Shown: in pieces, positions 1 to 8,729 of the stretch | Position numbering within the stretch: position 1 is the first letter of the stretch | Layout of the letters: each line of letters opens with the position of its first letter | Origin: Sphingomonadales bacterium BRH_c42 | GTDB taxonomy: Bacteria; Pseudomonadota; Alphaproteobacteria; Sphingomonadales; Sphingomonadaceae | DNA: 64,000 bases | NCBI GenBank assembly: GCA_001516125.1 | Contig: LOEX01000127.1 | Span: 1 to 64,000 of the forward strand | Direction: 5' to 3' | Program-made: the position numbers and the translations under genes | The notes under the pieces: model-generated | What the model was told of the DNA's origin: nothing | Seen by the model: the letters and a program-made list of their open reading frames with translations, nothing else | Database searches by the model: none

Positions 1-511
1 CCGCCGCGCGCCAGGCCTGCCACGCCAGCGCCAGCCCATCGGCGTCGCTTGCCGCGTAACGATCGAGCAGAATACGGTGCCCGCGCGGATTGACGAGGCC
101 GCGGTCGTCGTGCTGGCCATGCAGTTCGACCAGCGCGGGCGCGATCTCGCGCAGCAGACCGGCACTGACCGGCTGATCGTTGATGAACGCGCGCGAGGCG
201 CCGTCCGCCTTCAACTGCCTGCGGATCAGCAGCGGCTCGCCCGGTTCGATCTCGACCCCGGCCTGCGCCAGCGTTTCGGCAATCGCAGCGGGAAGCTGCG
301 CGAATTCGAAGCTGGCGGAAACGCTCGCCTTGTCCTCACCGCCGCGAATCAGCGATGCCTCCGCCCGGTCGCCCAGCGCCAGCCCCAGCGAATCGAGCAG
401 GATCGATTTGCCCGCGCCGGTCTCACCCGTGAGCACGCCCAGCCCGCGCCCGAAATCGAGATCGAGCGCCTCGATCAGCACGATATTGCGGATGGAAAGC
501 CGGGTCAGCAT
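1..511 (-). CDS. recN: DNA repair protein RecN, N-terminal part (runs off window)
   Basis: Minus-strand translation MLTRLSIRNIVLIEALDLDFGRGLGVLTGETGAGKSILLDSLGLALGDRAEASLIR... with Walker A GETGAGKS typical of RecN; CAT at 509-511. Confidence 0.93.
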   Translation of the reverse strand, partial: MLTRLSIRNIVLIEALDLDFGRGLGVLTGETGAGKSILLDSLGLALGDRAEASLIRGGEDKASVSASFEFAQLPAAIAETLAQAGVEIEPGEPLLIRRQLKADGASRAFINDQPVSAGLLREIAPALVELHGQHDDRGLVNPRGHRILLDRYAASDADGLALAWQAWRAA

Positions 512-603
512 GATTGTGCGCCCGTGTTAACCCATGCCGCGCCGCGCGTCACCGCCCGAGGCGTTCCATCATGTGGACTTTTGCCCTGGCGATTATCCGC
601 GCC

Positions 604-1416
604 CTAGCTGGCAGTCACGCCCGGCGCGTGTTTGCCGATCAGCGCATAGGCCTTTTCGTACCATTCGTTGCCCGGATAATTGGCGCCCAGCACCGCGGCA
701 TATTTCACCGCTTCTTCGGGCAGGCCCAGCGCCAGGCTGCTTTCCGTGAGGCGATAGAGCGCCTCGGGCGTGTGGCTGGTGGTGTCGAACCCCTTTACCA
801 CGTTCTCGAACCGCATCCGCGCCGCCAACCAATGGCCCGATTTCTGATAGAAGCGCCCGATCTCCATTTCCTTGCCCGCCAGGTGATCGTTGACCAGATC
901 GAGCTTGAGCCGCGCGTCGGCGGCATATTCGGTGGTGGGGAAGCGGCGATCGATTTCGCGCAGCGCAGAGCGCGCCTGCTCGGTGATCTTCTGGTCACGC
1001 TGGACATCGCTGATCTGCTCGTAATAGCTAAGCCCGATCAGGTAATAGGCATAGGGCGCATCGCGGTTGCCGGGGTGGATCGAGAGGAAGCGCTGCGCGC
1101 TGGCGATCGCCTTGTTGTAATCTTGTGCGATGTAATAGCTGAACGCGCTCATCAGCTGCGCGCGGCGCGCCCAGGGCGAATAGGGATGCTGGCGCTCGAC
1201 CTCGTCGAACAGTGCGGCGGCAAGCTGCGTGTTGCCGCGATCGAGCCTGCGCTTGGCCTCGTTATAGAGCGTTTCGACATCGCGCGCGACATAGGCGACA
1301 TCCTCGTTATCGCCCCCGCGCCCCGCGCAGCCTGCGGTGAAAAGCGTGGCCGCGGCCAGCGCGGCGGCAAGAATTGGCTTGGTGGTGAAGGCGGTCACGC
1401 GCGGAATCCTCGTCAT
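604..1416 (-). CDS. bamD: Outer membrane protein assembly factor BamD (lipoprotein, TPR)
   Basis: MTRIPRVTAFTTKPILAAALAAATLFTAGC lipobox; ETLYNEAKRRLDRGNTQLAAALFDEVERQHPYSPWARRAQLMSAFSYY BamD/ComL signature. Start trimmed to ATG at 1414-1416. Confidence 0.93.
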   Translation of the reverse strand: MTRIPRVTAFTTKPILAAALAAATLFTAGCAGRGGDNEDVAYVARDVETLYNEAKRRLDRGNTQLAAALFDEVERQHPYSPWARRAQLMSAFSYYIAQDYNKAIASAQRFLSIHPGNRDAPYAYYLIGLSYYEQISDVQRDQKITEQARSALREIDRRFPTTEYAADARLKLDLVNDHLAGKEMEIGRFYQKSGHWLAARMRFENVVKGFDTTSHTPEALYRLTESSLALGLPEEAVKYAAVLGANYPGNEWYEKAYALIGKHAPGVTAS

Positions 1417-1594
1417 GGGAGCAAGCCTATAACCGCCCCCCGGCTGAACGCCAAGTGAAGTTGGACGGGTTGTTCGCCAATGCCCGCCTCCACCTGGTTC
1501 GTCGCTGAAAAAATGCGCGCCTGGAACGGATGGAACACGGGACGGGCGGGTGTAGGAAATGGGGGGGTGATCAGACCAATCGCAATATGAGTCA

Positions 1595-1623
1595 TTGACG
1601 TATATGCTAATGGCGTATATACG
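1595..1623 (+). promoter_or_regulatory. Candidate promoter/operator of the toxin-antitoxin operon
   Basis: TTGACG (1595-1600), 17 nt, TATACG (1618-1623); perfect palindrome CGTATATACG at 1614-1623 with another CGTATAT half-site at 1599-1605. Confidence 0.55.
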
Positions 1624-1631
1624 AGCCTGGT

Positions 1632-1973
1632 ATGACACGCTTGCAGACCGTCGCTGAAATGCCTGAATTTCAGAGGCGCGCCAAGGCGATCATGACGGAA
1701 GATGAGCGTACGGCGCTGCTGGATTTCGTCGCCGCCAATCCGCAGGCAGGCGTGTCACTTGGCGGAGGCCTGCGCAAACTACGCTTTGCCCGGCCAGGTG
1801 GAGGCAAGAGCGGCGGTTATCGCACCGTCTATGTATTTGGCGGCGCGCATATGCCGATCTTCCTCGTCACCGTGTTCGCCAAGAACGAGAAGGACAATCT
1901 GAGCAAGGCGGAACTGGCCGAACTCGTTAAACTCAGCAAGGCGCTGATTTCGTATTACGGAGACCCATCATGA
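1632..1973 (+). CDS. RelE/ParE-superfamily type II toxin
   Basis: RRAKAIMTEDERTALLDFVAANPQAG...GGLRKLRFARPGGGKSGGYRTVYVFGG..IFLVTVFAKNEKDNLSKAE is RelE-like; overlaps the downstream XRE antitoxin by 4 nt. Confidence 0.85.
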   Translation: MTRLQTVAEMPEFQRRAKAIMTEDERTALLDFVAANPQAGVSLGGGLRKLRFARPGGGKSGGYRTVYVFGGAHMPIFLVTVFAKNEKDNLSKAELAELVKLSKALISYYGDPS

Positions 1974-2272
1974 ACGCCCCGAAATCCAAGGCATTCGAAA
2001 GCATCAGGCAGGGCCTTGAAGAAGCCCTCGCCTATGCCGAAGGCAAGAAGACCGGCGCGCGCGTGCACCAGGTGGAAGTACCCAAGGTGGACGTCGCCGC
2101 GATCCGCGCGAAGACCGGGCTGTCACAGGTCGAATTCGCACGCAGCATCGGCGTCGCCAAGGGCACGCTGCTGAATTGGGAGCATGGCCGGCGACACCCG
2201 ACCGGCCCGGCGCAGGTATTGCTGGCGATGATCGCCAAGCGGCCGAGCCTGGTGGGGGAGGTGCTGCGGTAA
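1970..2272 (+). CDS. XRE-family antitoxin (HigA/NadS-like)
   Basis: KTGLSQVEFARSIGVAKGTLLNWEHGRRHPTGPAQVLLAMIAKRP helix-turn-helix; starts by ATGA overlap with the toxin stop. Confidence 0.87.
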   Translation: MNAPKSKAFESIRQGLEEALAYAEGKKTGARVHQVEVPKVDVAAIRAKTGLSQVEFARSIGVAKGTLLNWEHGRRHPTGPAQVLLAMIAKRPSLVGEVLR

Positions 2273-2286
2273 TTTATCCTTGGAAA

Positions 2287-3156
2287 TCAGGCCACGATAC
2301 CATGATACTCACGGTGCCAGGCCAGAAAGGTCGGATGCGGGCGATCCGCCTCGCGATCTGGCGCGATTAGCCGCCCTGTCGGATTGATGATCGCCTCAAC
2401 CCCGGCGCGGTCATTCACCTTGCGGTGAATCAGAATGTCGTGATTGTCGGCGACGCAGATCAGCCCCCGATCGAACATCCAGTGCGCTGTTCCCGATAGC
2501 GCCAGCCCATTACGCACGCTGTCCGGCCCGCCATGCTCGACCGGGCGAATATGCGCGGCTTCGGCTTCGAGCCGCCCTCCCCCGTTGATAAGTCGCCACC
2601 CGGTCACCGCGCAGCGCCCGTCATATGCGTGGAGCACAGCGCGGCGAAACGCACGGTCGCGAAATGGACGGCTGACGAGCGATTGCACAAGCGGGCGTTC
2701 GATTTCGAAGGGCATTTGTTCTTCGCGCACTCGATCAAGCGGCTCGGCCTCGCCAACACGCGGTAGCGTCCGGTCGTCAGGCAGGCCGAGTTTGATTATG
2801 CGGGCAAAATCGGAATTCGAAAGGGGCCGCACAGCGGCTTGCGCGTTCGCCAAGTCGCGCTCGACCGGCTGACCATCGACCATGTGGGGAACAGTTGGCT
2901 CGAACGGCAGATAACTGCCCTCTTCGATCAAGGCGCGGTAGCGGTCTGGTTCAACGGGATCGGGAACGATCTTCTCGACCTTCGCTACAGCGAAGAAGCC
3001 TTTCGATTGCGACAGCTTTACCGGCTCGCGATAGACAACCCAGTCGCCGACCATCTGCTTGGCGCGGGAAAGGTAGGACTTCGGGAACTGGTAATGCACC
3101 TCGGGAATGTCGTCGTAGATCGACCCGTCTTTGTGCATGAAAACGCCAAAGGTCAT
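2287..3156 (-). CDS. HNH_2-type endonuclease with N-terminal reader-like (PUA/EVE/SRA-like?) region
   Basis: C-terminal CAVTGW...LEAEAAHIRPVEHGGPDSVRNGLALSGTAHWMFDRGLI is an HNH_2 core; N-terminal VGDWVVYREPVKLSQSKGFFAVAKVEKIVPDP..YRALIEEGSYLPF resembles small-molecule/base-reader folds. Confidence 0.8.
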   Translation of the reverse strand: MTFGVFMHKDGSIYDDIPEVHYQFPKSYLSRAKQMVGDWVVYREPVKLSQSKGFFAVAKVEKIVPDPVEPDRYRALIEEGSYLPFEPTVPHMVDGQPVERDLANAQAAVRPLSNSDFARIIKLGLPDDRTLPRVGEAEPLDRVREEQMPFEIERPLVQSLVSRPFRDRAFRRAVLHAYDGRCAVTGWRLINGGGRLEAEAAHIRPVEHGGPDSVRNGLALSGTAHWMFDRGLICVADNHDILIHRKVNDRAGVEAIINPTGRLIAPDREADRPHPTFLAWHREYHGIVA

Positions 3157-3340
3157 CTATTCTGCGCCGCCTGCTTCTATGTGAGTATCCGCCGACTTGC
3201 GGCACCGCAACGTAACTCAGTATCACGCACAAACCAATGTATGATGGGGAAAACTTTGTACAACCAGTTGCCGACATCTCAGCACTTGGAGCATTCTAAA
3301 CTGTTCCGAGGCTTTGAACATTTACTTTGAGGATCGACGG

Positions 3341-3808
3341 ATGACAAATCGTGTTCACATTGATGCACCCGCAGGCGTAGTTGAAATTGAGGGCGAAAAA
3401 GATTTCGTGGAAGGCGTCATCGACAAATTCTTTCCGATCTTGCAGGCTTCAAAATTTGGTAGCCATCCAGCTGGAAACCCAGCAGGCAAAAAAGCCAAAG
3501 AGGAATCTTCACCAGAGTCAATGGAAGGAGACATGGAGGAGAATCCAAAACCTAAAGTTAGACGCAAGAAGGGCAGCGCTCCCCCAAAGGGACAGTCTTG
3601 CGCCGACCGAGTGTTAATTCTTAGAGGCGAGAAATTTTTCAAGTCGCATCGATCGAGTGCCGAGATTGTCGACGGACTAGCGGCGAAGGGATGGACGCAC
3701 AACAATAACCAAGTTGGCGCAGCGCTTTCTAGTATGTTTAGACGCGGCGACATTCAAAGGACCAAAGAATCTGGCGGAGCCTGGAAATACTACTGGGATC
3801 GTGACTAA
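3341..3808 (+). CDS. Uncharacterised protein with probable C-terminal winged helix
   Basis: ATG at 3341 with GAGG upstream; DRVLILRGEKFFKSHRSSAEIVDGLAAKGWTHNNNQVGAALSSMFRRGDIQRTKESGGAWKYYW looks like wHTH; AT-richer than flanks; 2-nt gap to next gene. Confidence 0.65.
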   Translation: MTNRVHIDAPAGVVEIEGEKDFVEGVIDKFFPILQASKFGSHPAGNPAGKKAKEESSPESMEGDMEENPKPKVRRKKGSAPPKGQSCADRVLILRGEKFFKSHRSSAEIVDGLAAKGWTHNNNQVGAALSSMFRRGDIQRTKESGGAWKYYWDRD

Positions 3809-3810
3809 TC

Positions 3811-4581
3811 GTGTCGTTACCAAGCTTGGATGACACTATGGGCGCGATACCAGCGGCACTGAGGCAGCCGCTCATAAATGAGTTTCAACATGCGCTGGAT
3901 GAGTATCGAGCAGCCGATTGGGAGAAGGTTGGCCTAAAGGCAGGAAAATTCAGCGAAATTGCTTATTGTGTCTGTAAGGGACACGCCACTGGCAGCTATC
4001 CCTCGGTTCCAAGTAAACCGAGGAACTTCCCTCAAGCTTGCAGGGATCTAGAGCAGCACAACACTACAAAAGGACGCTCCCTTTGTATGCAAGTTCCGAA
4101 GGTCCTTGCTGCAATATATGAGTTGAGAAATGACCGTGCCATAGGTCATGTTTCATCAGAGATCAGCCCAAATCATATGGACGCCGAATTCTGCCTTCGG
4201 TCGATGAAGTGGGTAATGGGAGAATTTGTTAGGAATTTTTCTACACTACTTTTGGAAGAGTCTCATGCCGTAGTTGAATCAGTAACAGCAAGGACCTTTC
4301 AAATAGTTTGGTCGAGTGGAAATATACGCCGAGTCCTTGAACCCGCAAGGACGGCTTCGCAAAAGACGATGATACTTCTTTACGCAGAAGGCAATAAGAT
4401 GGCTGTCGCAACACTTCAAACGTGGGTTGAATACAGAAATGCCTCGGAGTTCAAAAGCAAAGTCCTCAAGCCACTACACAAAAAGGCGCTGATCCATTTT
4501 GATGAAAGTGGGGGGACTGTCCAGATATTGCCGACGGGCCAAGCCTTTGTCGAGAAATCAGGTTTGCTAGCAACGACCTAG
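3811..4581 (+). CDS. Uncharacterised HEPN-like protein
   Basis: IYELRNDRAIGHVSSEISPNHMDAEFCLRSMKWVMGEFVRNF contains an Rx6H HEPN-type motif; immediately downstream of the wHTH-like gene; AT-richer composition. Confidence 0.6.
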   Translation: MSLPSLDDTMGAIPAALRQPLINEFQHALDEYRAADWEKVGLKAGKFSEIAYCVCKGHATGSYPSVPSKPRNFPQACRDLEQHNTTKGRSLCMQVPKVLAAIYELRNDRAIGHVSSEISPNHMDAEFCLRSMKWVMGEFVRNFSTLLLEESHAVVESVTARTFQIVWSSGNIRRVLEPARTASQKTMILLYAEGNKMAVATLQTWVEYRNASEFKSKVLKPLHKKALIHFDESGGTVQILPTGQAFVEKSGLLATT

Positions 4582-4590
4582 CAAAGAGAT

Positions 4591-6420
4591 CTACTCCTCC
4601 CCCATCCTCAGCGCGGCGATGAACGCCTCCTGCGGAATGCTGACGTTACCATATTCCCGCATCCGCGCCTTCCCCTTCTTCTGTTTTTCCAACAGCTTCT
4701 TCTTGCGCGTAATGTCACCGCCATAGCATTTGGCGGTCACGTCCTTGCGCAATGCGGCGATCGTTTCGCGCGCAATGATCTTGCCGCCGATCGCGGCCTG
4801 GATCGGCACCTTGAACAGGTGGCGCGGGATCAGGTCCTTCAGCCGCTCGCACATGCCGCGCCCTCGTTCCTCGGCCACGCCGCGGTGCACGATCATGCTC
4901 AGCGCATCGACCGGCTCGTTGTTGACGAGGATGTTCATCTTGACCAGATCGCCCTCGCGCAGGCCGATCTGCTCGTAATCGAAGCTGGCATAGCCGCGGC
5001 TGATGCTTTTCAGCCGGTCGTAGAAGTCGAACACCACCTCGTTCAGCGGCAGCTCGTACGTCACCTGCGCGCGTATGCTCTCTCTGGCGCCAACATAGGT
5101 GAGGTCGGTCTGCACGCCGCGCCGATCCTGGCACAGCTTGAGGATGGAGCCGAGATATTCGTCGGGCGTATAGATCGTGGCCTTGATCCACGGTTCCTCG
5201 ATCGTCTCGATCCGGCTGGGATCGGGATAATCGGCCGGGTTGTGCAGCAGGATCTCGGCTGCGCCCTCGGTCTTGCTGGCGCGCAGCTGGATGCGATAGA
5301 CCACCGATGGCGCGGTGGTGATGAGGTCGAGATCGTATTCGCGGGCGAGCCGTTCCTGGATGATCTCGAGGTGGAGCAGGCCGAGGAACCCGCAGCGGAA
5401 GCCGAAGCCCAATGCCGCGCTGGTTTCCATCTCGAAGCTGAAGCTGGCATCGTTGAGGCGCAGGCGGCTGATGCTTTCGCGCAGTTTCTCGAAATCGGCG
5501 GCGTCGGTGGGGAACAGCCCGCAGAACACCACCGGCTGTACTTCCTTGTAGCCGGGCAGCGGCTCGGTGGCGCCGCCCTTCACCGTGGTGATCGTGTCAC
5601 CCACGCGCGCCTGCTCCACTTCCTTGATCTGCGCGGTGATGAAGCCGATTTCGCCCGGGCCAAGATCGGGCAGTTCGATGCGCTTTGGGGTGAAGCAGCC
5701 CACGCGGTCGATCAGATGCTGCGTGCCGCCCTGCATGAAGCGGATGTTCAGCCCCTTGGTGATCAGCCCGTCGATTACGCGCACCAGGATCACCACGCCA
5801 AGATAGGGATCGTACCAGCTGTCGATCAGGCTGGCCTTGAGCGGCGCCTTGCGATCACCCTTGGGCGGGGGAATGCGCGCGACCACGGCCTCGAGCACTT
5901 CCTTGATGCCGATGCCCGATTTGGCGCTGGTCAGCACGGCATCCGAGGCGTCAAGCCCGATGATATCCTCGATCTCGTGTCTGACTTTCTCAGGCTCGGC
6001 GGCGGGAAGGTCGATCTTGTTGATGACGGGCACGATCTCGTGGTCGTGCTCGATCGACTGATAGACATTGGCGAGCGTCTGCGCCTCGACCCCCTGCGCC
6101 GCATCGACCACCAGCAGCGCGCCCTCGCAGGCGGCGAGGCTGCGGCTGACCTCATAGGCGAAATCGACGTGGCCGGGGGTGTCCATCAGGTTGAGCTGGT
6201 AGGCTTCGCCGTCGTTTGCGGTGTAGTTGAGGCGCACGGTCTGCGCCTTGATGGTGATGCCGCGCTCGCGCTCGATATCCATGTTGTCGAGCACTTGCTC
6301 GCTCATCTCGCGCGCGGTCAGCCCGCCGGTGAACTGGATCAGCCGGTCGGCCAGCGTCGACTTGCCATGGTCGATGTGCGCGATGATCGAAAAATTGCGG
6401 ATATGGGAAAGATCGGTCAT
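4591..6420 (-). CDS. lepA: Elongation factor 4 (LepA)
   Basis: [29 protein letters not shown]...; full-length LepA with C-terminal [23 protein letters not shown]. Confidence 0.98.
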
Positions 6421-6506
6421 GTGACCGCGCCATTAGCGCCGCGCAATCGCGCTGTCAGCCCATGGCATCAACTTGCCCGGCAAAATCACCGTCTTCAGGC
6501 AGGCCT

Positions 6507-8729
6507 TCAGACAGCTTCGGGGTGATAGTCGGGCGCATAACCGAAGCGCGGAACGCTCGCGCCAGGATTGAGCAATCCGCCCTGCATCGCCTTGTAATCG
6601 CCCGGCGCCAGTGCCGCGAGCGGAGCGCCTGCGGAGGACAGTTCGTATGGCGAAACCCGGTGGCGAGTGCAGAGCCCACCTGCCCCGTCATCGACCAGCG
6701 GGGTCTCGAACTCGAGGCCCTGGATACCCCCCGATTCGCGGATCACGGTCGCCACGGCCAGTTGGCCCCCTCCTAGATCGACCACGAACTGGGTATCGAC
6801 CGGCACATCGAGCAGGCCCTGGATCAGCGCCCCGGTGCGCGAAAGATTGCGCAGCGTGACCGAATAGGAATAATCGTCGTTGATCACCTGAATGTTGCGC
6901 AGCACCGTGCGCCGCTTGGCGCGCCTGCTGCGCGATCCGGTGGGGACGATTGTCCAGGATCCATCGGCCAGCTCACGCTCGACCTCGGCTGCCGGAACCG
7001 GATCGGTGAACACGCTGCCTTGCAGGTTGTTGATTCCGCAGCCGCGCAGTTCCTGAAGCAGATCGAAGCTTTCGATCCCGGTTGCGATGGTCGCCATGCC
7101 CAGCGCGCGGGCCAGCGCGACGATAGCCTTGACCAGCGCAAGTTCGCGGCTGTCGGGCTCCAGCGCCTCGCTGAAGAAGTTGTCGCCGATCTTGATCGAA
7201 TCGAATGGCGCACGGCGCAGGTAATCGAGCGAGGAATAACCGGTGCCAAACTCGTCGAGTGTAAGCCGCACGCCCAGCTTGAACAACGAGGCCAGCGTCT
7301 TGTCGACCATGTTTGCATCGCCGAGAAACACCGATTCCTTGACCTCCAGCTCCAGCCGGTCGGGATCTAAATCTGCCTCGTCGAGCGCATTCTTGACCGA
7401 TTCGACAAACCCGTTGGCGGAAAATTGCTGGGTCGGCACATTCACGGCCACGCGCAGACCCGCCGGCAAGGCCCGGGCCTCTTCGCAGGCCTTGCGGACG
7501 GTCCATTCGCCGATATCGACAATCAGCGCGCTGCCATCGACGATCGACTGGAACTCTTCCCAGTCGATTTCGCCGCGCTGCGGGTGGTTCCAGCAGACCA
7601 GCGCTTCGAGCGCAACAACCTGCTGCGCCTCGCTCGACAGCACCGGTTGGTATTTGAGGAACAACTGTTCCTCGCGCACGGCTTCGTGAAGGTCGCCTTC
7701 CAGACGTTTGCGGAAGATCGCCTCGTTCGCCAGATCGCCTGAGTAGAAGCGGAACTGCCCGCGCCCGCCATTTTTGGCGGCATATAGCGCCATGTCTGCG
7801 GAACGCATGACATCCTCGGCGCTGACCCCGTCATGCGGCGCGATCGCAATGCCAACCGATGCCCCGATCACGCAGCGGCCCTCGTCCAGCGAATAAGGCT
7901 GCGTAAGCATGGCGATGACCCTGCCAGCGATTTCGCCCAACACGCCGCGATCGTCGATATCGGGCAGCATGATCTGGAATTCGTCACCTCCCAGGCGGCC
8001 GATCTCGCAATCGCGCTCGACGGCTCGCTTGAGGCGTGCAGCGACCTGCCGCAGCAATTCGTCACCAGCGGCATGGCCCAGCGTGTCGTTGACCTGCTTG
8101 AAACGGTCGAGATCGAGCATCATGATCGCGCAATTGCGCTTGGCCGCGCGAAACGCGGTCAAGGTCGCGTCGATCGTATGGGCCATGCGGTGCCGGTTCG
8201 ACAGCCCGGTGAGCGAATCGAACTTGGCGAGGCGAGCGGTTTCCTGCTCGCGCTGATGCTGTTCGGTAATGTCGGTGCCGGTGCCGCGAAAACCCTCGAA
8301 CTTGCCGACAGCAGAGAAGACCGGACGACCCGAAAGACGAATTACGATCGCGCCCGGGTTGCGTTCGAGGGACACTTCCATGCCGTTGAAGGCCTTGCGT
8401 GCGCCCAGCTTGAGCGACAACGAACGGGTGCGCCCGTCGCCGCCGACAACGCTGAAGACGTCGACCAGCGGGTGACCCAGAAGATCGTCCATCGGCGCAT
8501 CGATGCGTTCGGCAATCGCGCTGCTGAGATATGTCAGGTTGCCCGCGGAGTCCGATGCCCAGAACCAACCCAGCCCCGACCGCTCCAGATCCTCAAGCAT
8601 TGCCAGCTTTTCGTCGTCGGTGAGCGTAAAGCGCACTGCTTCCTGCGCGGCGACGCGCGCGGAAAAAAGCCCGCCATTTGCCGAACCCGACAACAATCGC
8701 TTGAGGGACACCCTGTGCGTCTCCAACAT
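6507..8729 (-). CDS. PAS-GGDEF-EAL-PilZ protein; EAL domain with degenerate catalytic motifs
   Basis: RLGGDEFQIMLPD; EAL region LTLDEFGTGYSSL, KIGDNFF, IATGIES; C-terminal RNLSRTGALIQG PilZ-like. Confidence 0.92.
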   Translation of the reverse strand: MLETHRVSLKRLLSGSANGGLFSARVAAQEAVRFTLTDDEKLAMLEDLERSGLGWFWASDSAGNLTYLSSAIAERIDAPMDDLLGHPLVDVFSVVGGDGRTRSLSLKLGARKAFNGMEVSLERNPGAIVIRLSGRPVFSAVGKFEGFRGTGTDITEQHQREQETARLAKFDSLTGLSNRHRMAHTIDATLTAFRAAKRNCAIMMLDLDRFKQVNDTLGHAAGDELLRQVAARLKRAVERDCEIGRLGGDEFQIMLPDIDDRGVLGEIAGRVIAMLTQPYSLDEGRCVIGASVGIAIAPHDGVSAEDVMRSADMALYAAKNGGRGQFRFYSGDLANEAIFRKRLEGDLHEAVREEQLFLKYQPVLSSEAQQVVALEALVCWNHPQRGEIDWEEFQSIVDGSALIVDIGEWTVRKACEEARALPAGLRVAVNVPTQQFSANGFVESVKNALDEADLDPDRLELEVKESVFLGDANMVDKTLASLFKLGVRLTLDEFGTGYSSLDYLRRAPFDSIKIGDNFFSEALEPDSRELALVKAIVALARALGMATIATGIESFDLLQELRGCGINNLQGSVFTDPVPAAEVERELADGSWTIVPTGSRSRRAKRRTVLRNIQVINDDYSYSVTLRNLSRTGALIQGLLDVPVDTQFVVDLGGGQLAVATVIRESGGIQGLEFETPLVDDGAGGLCTRHRVSPYELSSAGAPLAALAPGDYKAMQGGLLNPGASVPRFGYAPDYHPEAV

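Follow-up and report, generated by a model that had tools for sequence, protein, structure and literature searches.

Two adjacent genes of Sphingomonadales bacterium BRH_c42, P1 and P2, very probably constitute an uncatalogued bacterial immunity or toxin module, and on balance we favor reading them as an abortive-infection-type cassette in which a HEPN RNase effector (P2) would be restrained by winged-helix subunits (P1 and its relatives). The computational evidence comprises the folds of the two proteins, invariant HEPN residues, linkage of effector and partner, horizontal spread, purifying selection and a defence-type location. Positions refer to the window, the whole 64,000-nucleotide stretch of DNA that was analysed.

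Both genes are intact open reading frames on the forward strand. P1 (3341-3808, ATG at 3341) encodes 155 amino acids and P2 (3811-4581, GTG at 3811) encodes 256; the gap between them is 2 nt, confirming the tight linkage given in a preliminary description made from the sequence alone. With GC contents of 0.489 (P1) and 0.479 (P2) they are, as also stated there, AT-richer than bamD (0.632) and lepA (0.627), and likewise AT-richer than the window (0.621), i.e. 48-49% vs 62-63% around them. They lie between bamD (604-1458, reverse strand; ORF and lepA-bamD distance in relatives) and lepA (4591-6420, reverse strand; ORF and homologues in relatives), the two borders of a variable locus. The accessory pocket attributed to this interval indeed holds a RelE-type toxin (PF06296, E 3e-14) with a NadS-type antitoxin (1632-2272, forward strand) and an HNH protein (HNH_2, E 1e-10; 2287-3156, reverse strand). 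The module is present as a single copy in the host assembly, a 78%-complete draft of 2.2 Mb. Promoter and terminator scans performed no better than on shuffles. Because comparisons with the window genes give a saturated dS, we calculated dN/dS on more closely related pairs; it amounted to ~0.03 for P2 and ~0.06 for P1, placing both genes under strong purifying selection.

Predicted structures of the two proteins

The presumed RNase effector P2 was delineated from its ORF, an AlphaFold2 model built with 21 homologues (mean pLDDT 88.5) and an alignment, A5. The model displays a confident helical bundle at residues 15-143 (3853-4239, forward strand; helices 15-33, 37-60, 73-87, 89-107 and 120-143) followed by a C-terminal winged helix at residues 182-250 (4354-4560, forward strand) that had previously been missed. 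The motif RNDRAIGH (R106 to H113, Rx6H; 4126-4149, forward strand) occupies the end of helix 3 and the following loop: helix 89-107 ends at the motif, H113 is found in the loop 108-119 and helix 120-143 comes next, so that R106 and H113 are not placed apart. This agrees with the motif location described for HEPN proteins (PMC3710099), and the earlier proposal that RNDRAIGH is a HEPN signature holds up in the model and the alignment. R106, R109, H113, E49, W37, W134, E138 and R141 are invariant in 21/21 sequences of A5. Since R106, R109 and H113 persist across homologues reaching down to 28% identity, the Rx6H spacing is not a chance occurrence. More distant members (G274, G238 and G046) also keep R106, R109, H113 and E49. 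The residue after R106 is N, or S in one row of A5 and in these three members, and P2 thus carries the Rx4-6H motif with a polar residue after the arginine that characterizes catalytic-type HEPN domains. E49 (3955-3957, forward strand), the invariant acid in helix 37-60, is a candidate active-site residue; it corresponds to the conserved helix-2 acid of HEPN proteins (PMC3710099) and does not stand in an Ex3[KR] context.

Foldseek matched P2 to the solved HEPN domains 3o10, 1ufb, 2q00, 2hsb and Csm6 with probabilities of 0.89-0.95 and E-values of 0.2-0.8; the matched structures are sacsin, TT1696, AF0298, a Sulfolobus protein and Csm6. The HEPN toxin structure 8yuf was among the weak matches, and the winged helix matched MarR-type domains with probabilities of 0.99-1.00. 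As all E-values for P2 exceeded 0.05, the HEPN assignment rests on the concordance of motif, topology and matches and not on one score. Sequence searches against solved structures, using single proteins and profiles, returned chance matches only. The Abi_C model (PF14355) touches the motif region at E 0.19 and 12.3 bits vs a cut-off of 24 bits, and 2/21 family members match it weakly. By its predicted bundle, Rx6H motif and helix-2 glutamate P2 is a HEPN protein, and sequence and model together suggest that it probably cuts RNA.

P1 (3341-3808, forward strand) was defined by its ORF, its AlphaFold2 model and homologues adjoining HEPN genes. It starts with a β-hairpin and a helix at residues 3-36 (VHIDAPAGVVEIEGEKDFVEGVIDKFFPIL; 3347-3448, forward strand), modeled as strands 3-9 and 12-18 and helix 20-36. 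This stretch had been singled out as conserved-looking, and G18, F22 and V23 are invariant in alignment A6. The charged linker and probable winged helix described at the same time are likewise evident: residues 38-76 (3452-3568, forward strand) are predicted to be disordered with pLDDT <50, and residues 87-151 (3599-3793, forward strand) form a winged helix with pLDDT ~92 that resembles Fur/Zur/MecI-type DNA-binding domains (Foldseek, probability 1.00, best E 6e-3). By hhalign (probability 0.5%) no homology of this domain to the winged helix of P2 was detectable, and no link of P1 to a known inhibitor or sensor was found at sequence level. The assignment of P1 as sensor or regulator and of P2 as effector, which dates from the preliminary description, is one we infer.

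No Pfam, NCBIfam or PADLOC model scored above its cut-off for P1 or P2, and PADLOC-DB 2.0.0 (2023) contained no family at E-values up to 1, in line with the earlier label of a candidate undescribed module. In a literature search that reached few subscription journals, we found no published family combining HEPN, a C-terminal winged helix and small winged-helix partners. DefensePredictor (PMC13092281) reports four validated HEPN systems.

Cassette composition, distribution and transfer

The HEPN gene adjoins a small gene in 27/27 distinct loci, and in 26 of these the small gene belongs to one winged-helix superfamily. This superfamily is a single-linkage cluster of 40 proteins and is meant loosely, since its E-values come from a small set and the linkage was generous. 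Close homologues have partner and HEPN genes separated by 2 nt or overlapping. The pair is therefore conserved together, with a winged-helix partner beside the HEPN gene in essentially every locus; what had been seen as a two-gene unit is real as a pair but represents the smallest form of a cassette of two to four genes. One partner is present in the window and in L026-L035, two or three in L014-L016, L023, L037, L040 and L042; the HEPN gene precedes a P1 relative in L015. L045, one of the 20 homologues from the contig scan described below, is apparently the same genome as G181 from the genome search.

Three variants were observed. In L017 (7286-8688, reverse strand) a P1-like gene accompanies a different protein with an apparent N-terminal winged helix and a C-terminal HEPN domain (RNSCAHP), a domain order reversed relative to P2 and read by eye. 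The P1 homologue of Tabrizicola flagellatus (L033, 5515-5991) has an in-frame stop within the disordered linker, either genuine or due to a sequencing error, that separates its two otherwise intact domains. On two Phyllobacterium megaplasmids P1 relatives without a HEPN gene (L007, 6001-6471; L008, 5989-6459) have an HTH regulator on one side and type III secretion genes on the other.

A scan of public genome contigs driven by a three-row alignment yielded 20 P2 homologues. Their hosts belong to several orders of Alphaproteobacteria and to Bacteroidota, Gemmatimonadota, Spirochaetota, Myxococcota, Gammaproteobacteria, Actinomycetota, Saccharibacteria, Chloroflexota and Bacillota, making P2-type HEPN proteins rare and patchy across about ten phyla. 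The module occurs in 6/301 genomes of the family, 4/385 of the class and 2/399 of the phylum, with the host counted in each. P2 shares 72-77% identity with homologues in Acetobacteraceae, Caulobacteraceae, Paracoccaceae and Rhizobiaceae but 18-39% with those drawn from its own family. The tree mixes orders, with Tabrizicola pairing with Ciceribacter and the sphingomonads scattered over several clades. This closer relationship to other orders than to the own family, combined with the mixed tree, is best explained by horizontal transfer.

Phages, plasmids and viral contigs often carry defence and toxin modules. P2 homologues were found neither in 50,697 phages or 72,556 plasmids (tblastn) nor in viral contigs (one scan), and we rejected a phage or plasmid origin on these empty searches. 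A distant P2 representative gave only one match, a partial one on a haloarchaeal plasmid.

The lepA-bamD interval

Reading the 3' side of lepA in relatives of the genus revealed that the interval to bamD (window 1640-4590 and L076-L101) serves this genus as a hotspot for accessory and defence genes. The distance between the two genes ranges from 189 nt, where the interval is nearly empty, to 8549 nt, being 189, 403, 589 or 1184 nt in four relatives and 1.6 to 8.5 kb in most others, and the cargo differs in nearly every genome. It includes SIR2-STAND-TPR (Avs-like), a type ISP restriction enzyme, AIPR, KAP NTPase, Schlafen-AAA and nSTAND proteins as well as a D12 methyltransferase, a C5 methyltransferase with a Vsr-like gene (Vsr by sequence) and HNH proteins. 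In G046 the end of this locus next to lepA is taken up by a version of the module with three genes.

Among the 20 homologue loci, five contain a DNA methyltransferase within ~6 kb vs 0.49 expected (P ~7e-5) under random placement of 130 methyltransferase genes in 82 Mb. This null ignores the clustering of methyltransferases in islands, so the result demonstrates an island association and not a direct partnership. The remaining 15/20 loci have no methyltransferase nearby. L037 also contains type I restriction-like genes (read from sequence). Together, hotspot cargo and methyltransferases substantiate the enrichment near defence genes that the preliminary description had proposed checking.

Two neighbors of the pair recur at this site. 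In the HNH protein, the C-terminal half is similar to phosphorothioate-DNA restriction nucleases (NF045808, E 7e-27, below cut-off) and the N-terminal half is unassigned; this protein has close relatives in the same place in G694 (L088) and G690 (L093) and a remnant in G046 (L016). The RelE-NadS pair of the window is also found in the hotspot of G692 (L083, 2285-2958).

Proposed function and alternatives

If P1-P2 is an abortive-infection-type cassette, P1 and its relatives would be the winged-helix subunits that keep P2 inactive, and an infection signal would be sensed by way of contacts that the winged helices make with nucleic acid or protein. Once triggered, P2, probably as a dimer, would cut RNA, with tRNA the likeliest target by analogy, and thereby stop the growth of the infected cell. 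All four elements of this scheme, from the RNase activity and its inhibition by P1 to the trigger and the protection from phage, are proposed by analogy with known systems. The immunity reading is supported by the invariant HEPN residues, the 27/27 pairing, the hotspot, the methyltransferases, the horizontal spread and the pair in L017. Counting against it are the absence of P2 from the phages, plasmids and viral contigs searched, the 15/20 loci lacking a methyltransferase, the weak Foldseek E-values, the missing sequence-level link of P1 to a known inhibitor or sensor and a search for the DNA signal of autoregulation that found none.

The main rival, which we regard as credible but considerably less probable, is a plain type II toxin-antitoxin pair with P2 as RNase toxin and P1 as antitoxin, any effect on phage being secondary. 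In its detailed form, held with the same reserve, P1 would bind P2 through its N-terminal part or linker while its winged helix represses the operon. P1-P2 shows the stable linkage with a small upstream partner that is typical of such pairs, and the 2-nt gap, the sizes, and the DNA-binding-type domain and disordered stretch of P1 all fit, as do the RelE-NadS pair in the same island and the Phyllobacterium genes, since a harmless antitoxin could occur without its HEPN gene. However, type II pairs do not usually have several winged-helix partners (L037, L014-L016 and L023) or an effector with a fused winged helix, P2 had no copies in the plasmids searched and no inverted repeat of at least 7 nt was found in the 196 nt upstream of P1 (3150-3345). 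HepT-MntA (HEPN/MNT) is likewise a two-gene unit with a HEPN RNase, but its partner is a nucleotidyltransferase, and gene order and sizes differ; we rejected this identity because P1 is a winged-helix protein.

A regulatory complex, in which HEPN would be a scaffold that binds nucleic acid or is catalytically dead and the cassette would control transcription, appears improbable. Every subunit carries a winged helix and some HEPN families are non-catalytic (PMC3710099), yet R106, H113 and E49 show no variation over about ten phyla, and a patchy, rare, horizontally spread and defence-associated module is unlike a housekeeping regulator.

Among described immune proteins, HEPN Abi effectors (Abi_C PF14355, AbiV, AbiJ, ApeA and pEK499_p136-like; PMC3710099) share the HEPN fold, the Rx4-6H motif and the association with defence, but P2 falls far under the Abi_C cut-off and adds a C-terminal winged helix and adjacent partners. 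EC042_2821-type wHTH-HEPN-REase proteins (PMC3710099), found in R-M operons, also join HEPN to a winged helix; there it is N-terminal and a REase is fused, whereas P2 has it at the C-terminus and HEPN as its sole nuclease. Type IX retrons consist of HEPN, a winged helix, a reverse transcriptase and an ncRNA (PMC13405049). In retron-Kva2 the winged-helix protein, together with msDNA, restrains a HEPN dimer until a phage HTH protein releases it and tRNA is cut (PMC13405049). As in P1-P2, a HEPN RNase and a winged-helix protein share one operon, but P2 has a winged helix of its own and the partner genes multiply and vary. No RVT_1 was detected in the 78%-complete host assembly or near the module in the 20 homologue genomes, and no retron RNA matched in window 1-7000 (Rfam, which may lack type IX). 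Given this and the contiguous Rx6H motif, P1-P2 may function in a similar way but is not a type IX retron, and we rejected membership. That it is an unrecognised type IX member with the reverse transcriptase lost or kept elsewhere is very improbable: the two effector folds are the same, and in these retrons msDNA is bound by the winged-helix protein while the HEPN dimer is kept inactive, but reverse transcriptase and retron RNA were not detected in the searches above, the type IX HEPN has H64 and R122 with no contiguous R...H motif (PMC13405049), and PADLOC gave no match for P1-P2.

Should the immunity-cassette reading be correct, P1-P2 would represent a widespread but rare HEPN immune module missed completely by the model libraries searched. 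Its constant effector and partners varying in number and sequence offer a clean natural system for studying winged-helix control of an RNase, and the type IX parallel poses a testable question, winged-helix sensing of infection without reverse-transcribed DNA. A bolder proposal, which we consider doubtful, is that of an unnamed immune family spanning ~ten phyla in which a constant HEPN-winged-helix RNase combines with interchangeable winged-helix subunits sensing foreign nucleic acid directly. It would in effect be a type IX retron lacking both reverse transcriptase and msDNA, and winged-helix-gated HEPN RNases would be a general design that could have given rise to such retrons.

Finally, the lepA-bamD hotspot is a place to look for more defence genes in the genus. 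Many copies of it hold a conserved HTH-like gene, 'MTRRxDPRTxRLPV...FTPVPRQ...RHDGWTPERQRAFIEALADTGSV'. In L068 (G698) lepA is followed after ~400 nt by a second, partial copy of its 3' end (57 codons, 77% identical), which may be a trace of an island having inserted at the lepA end.
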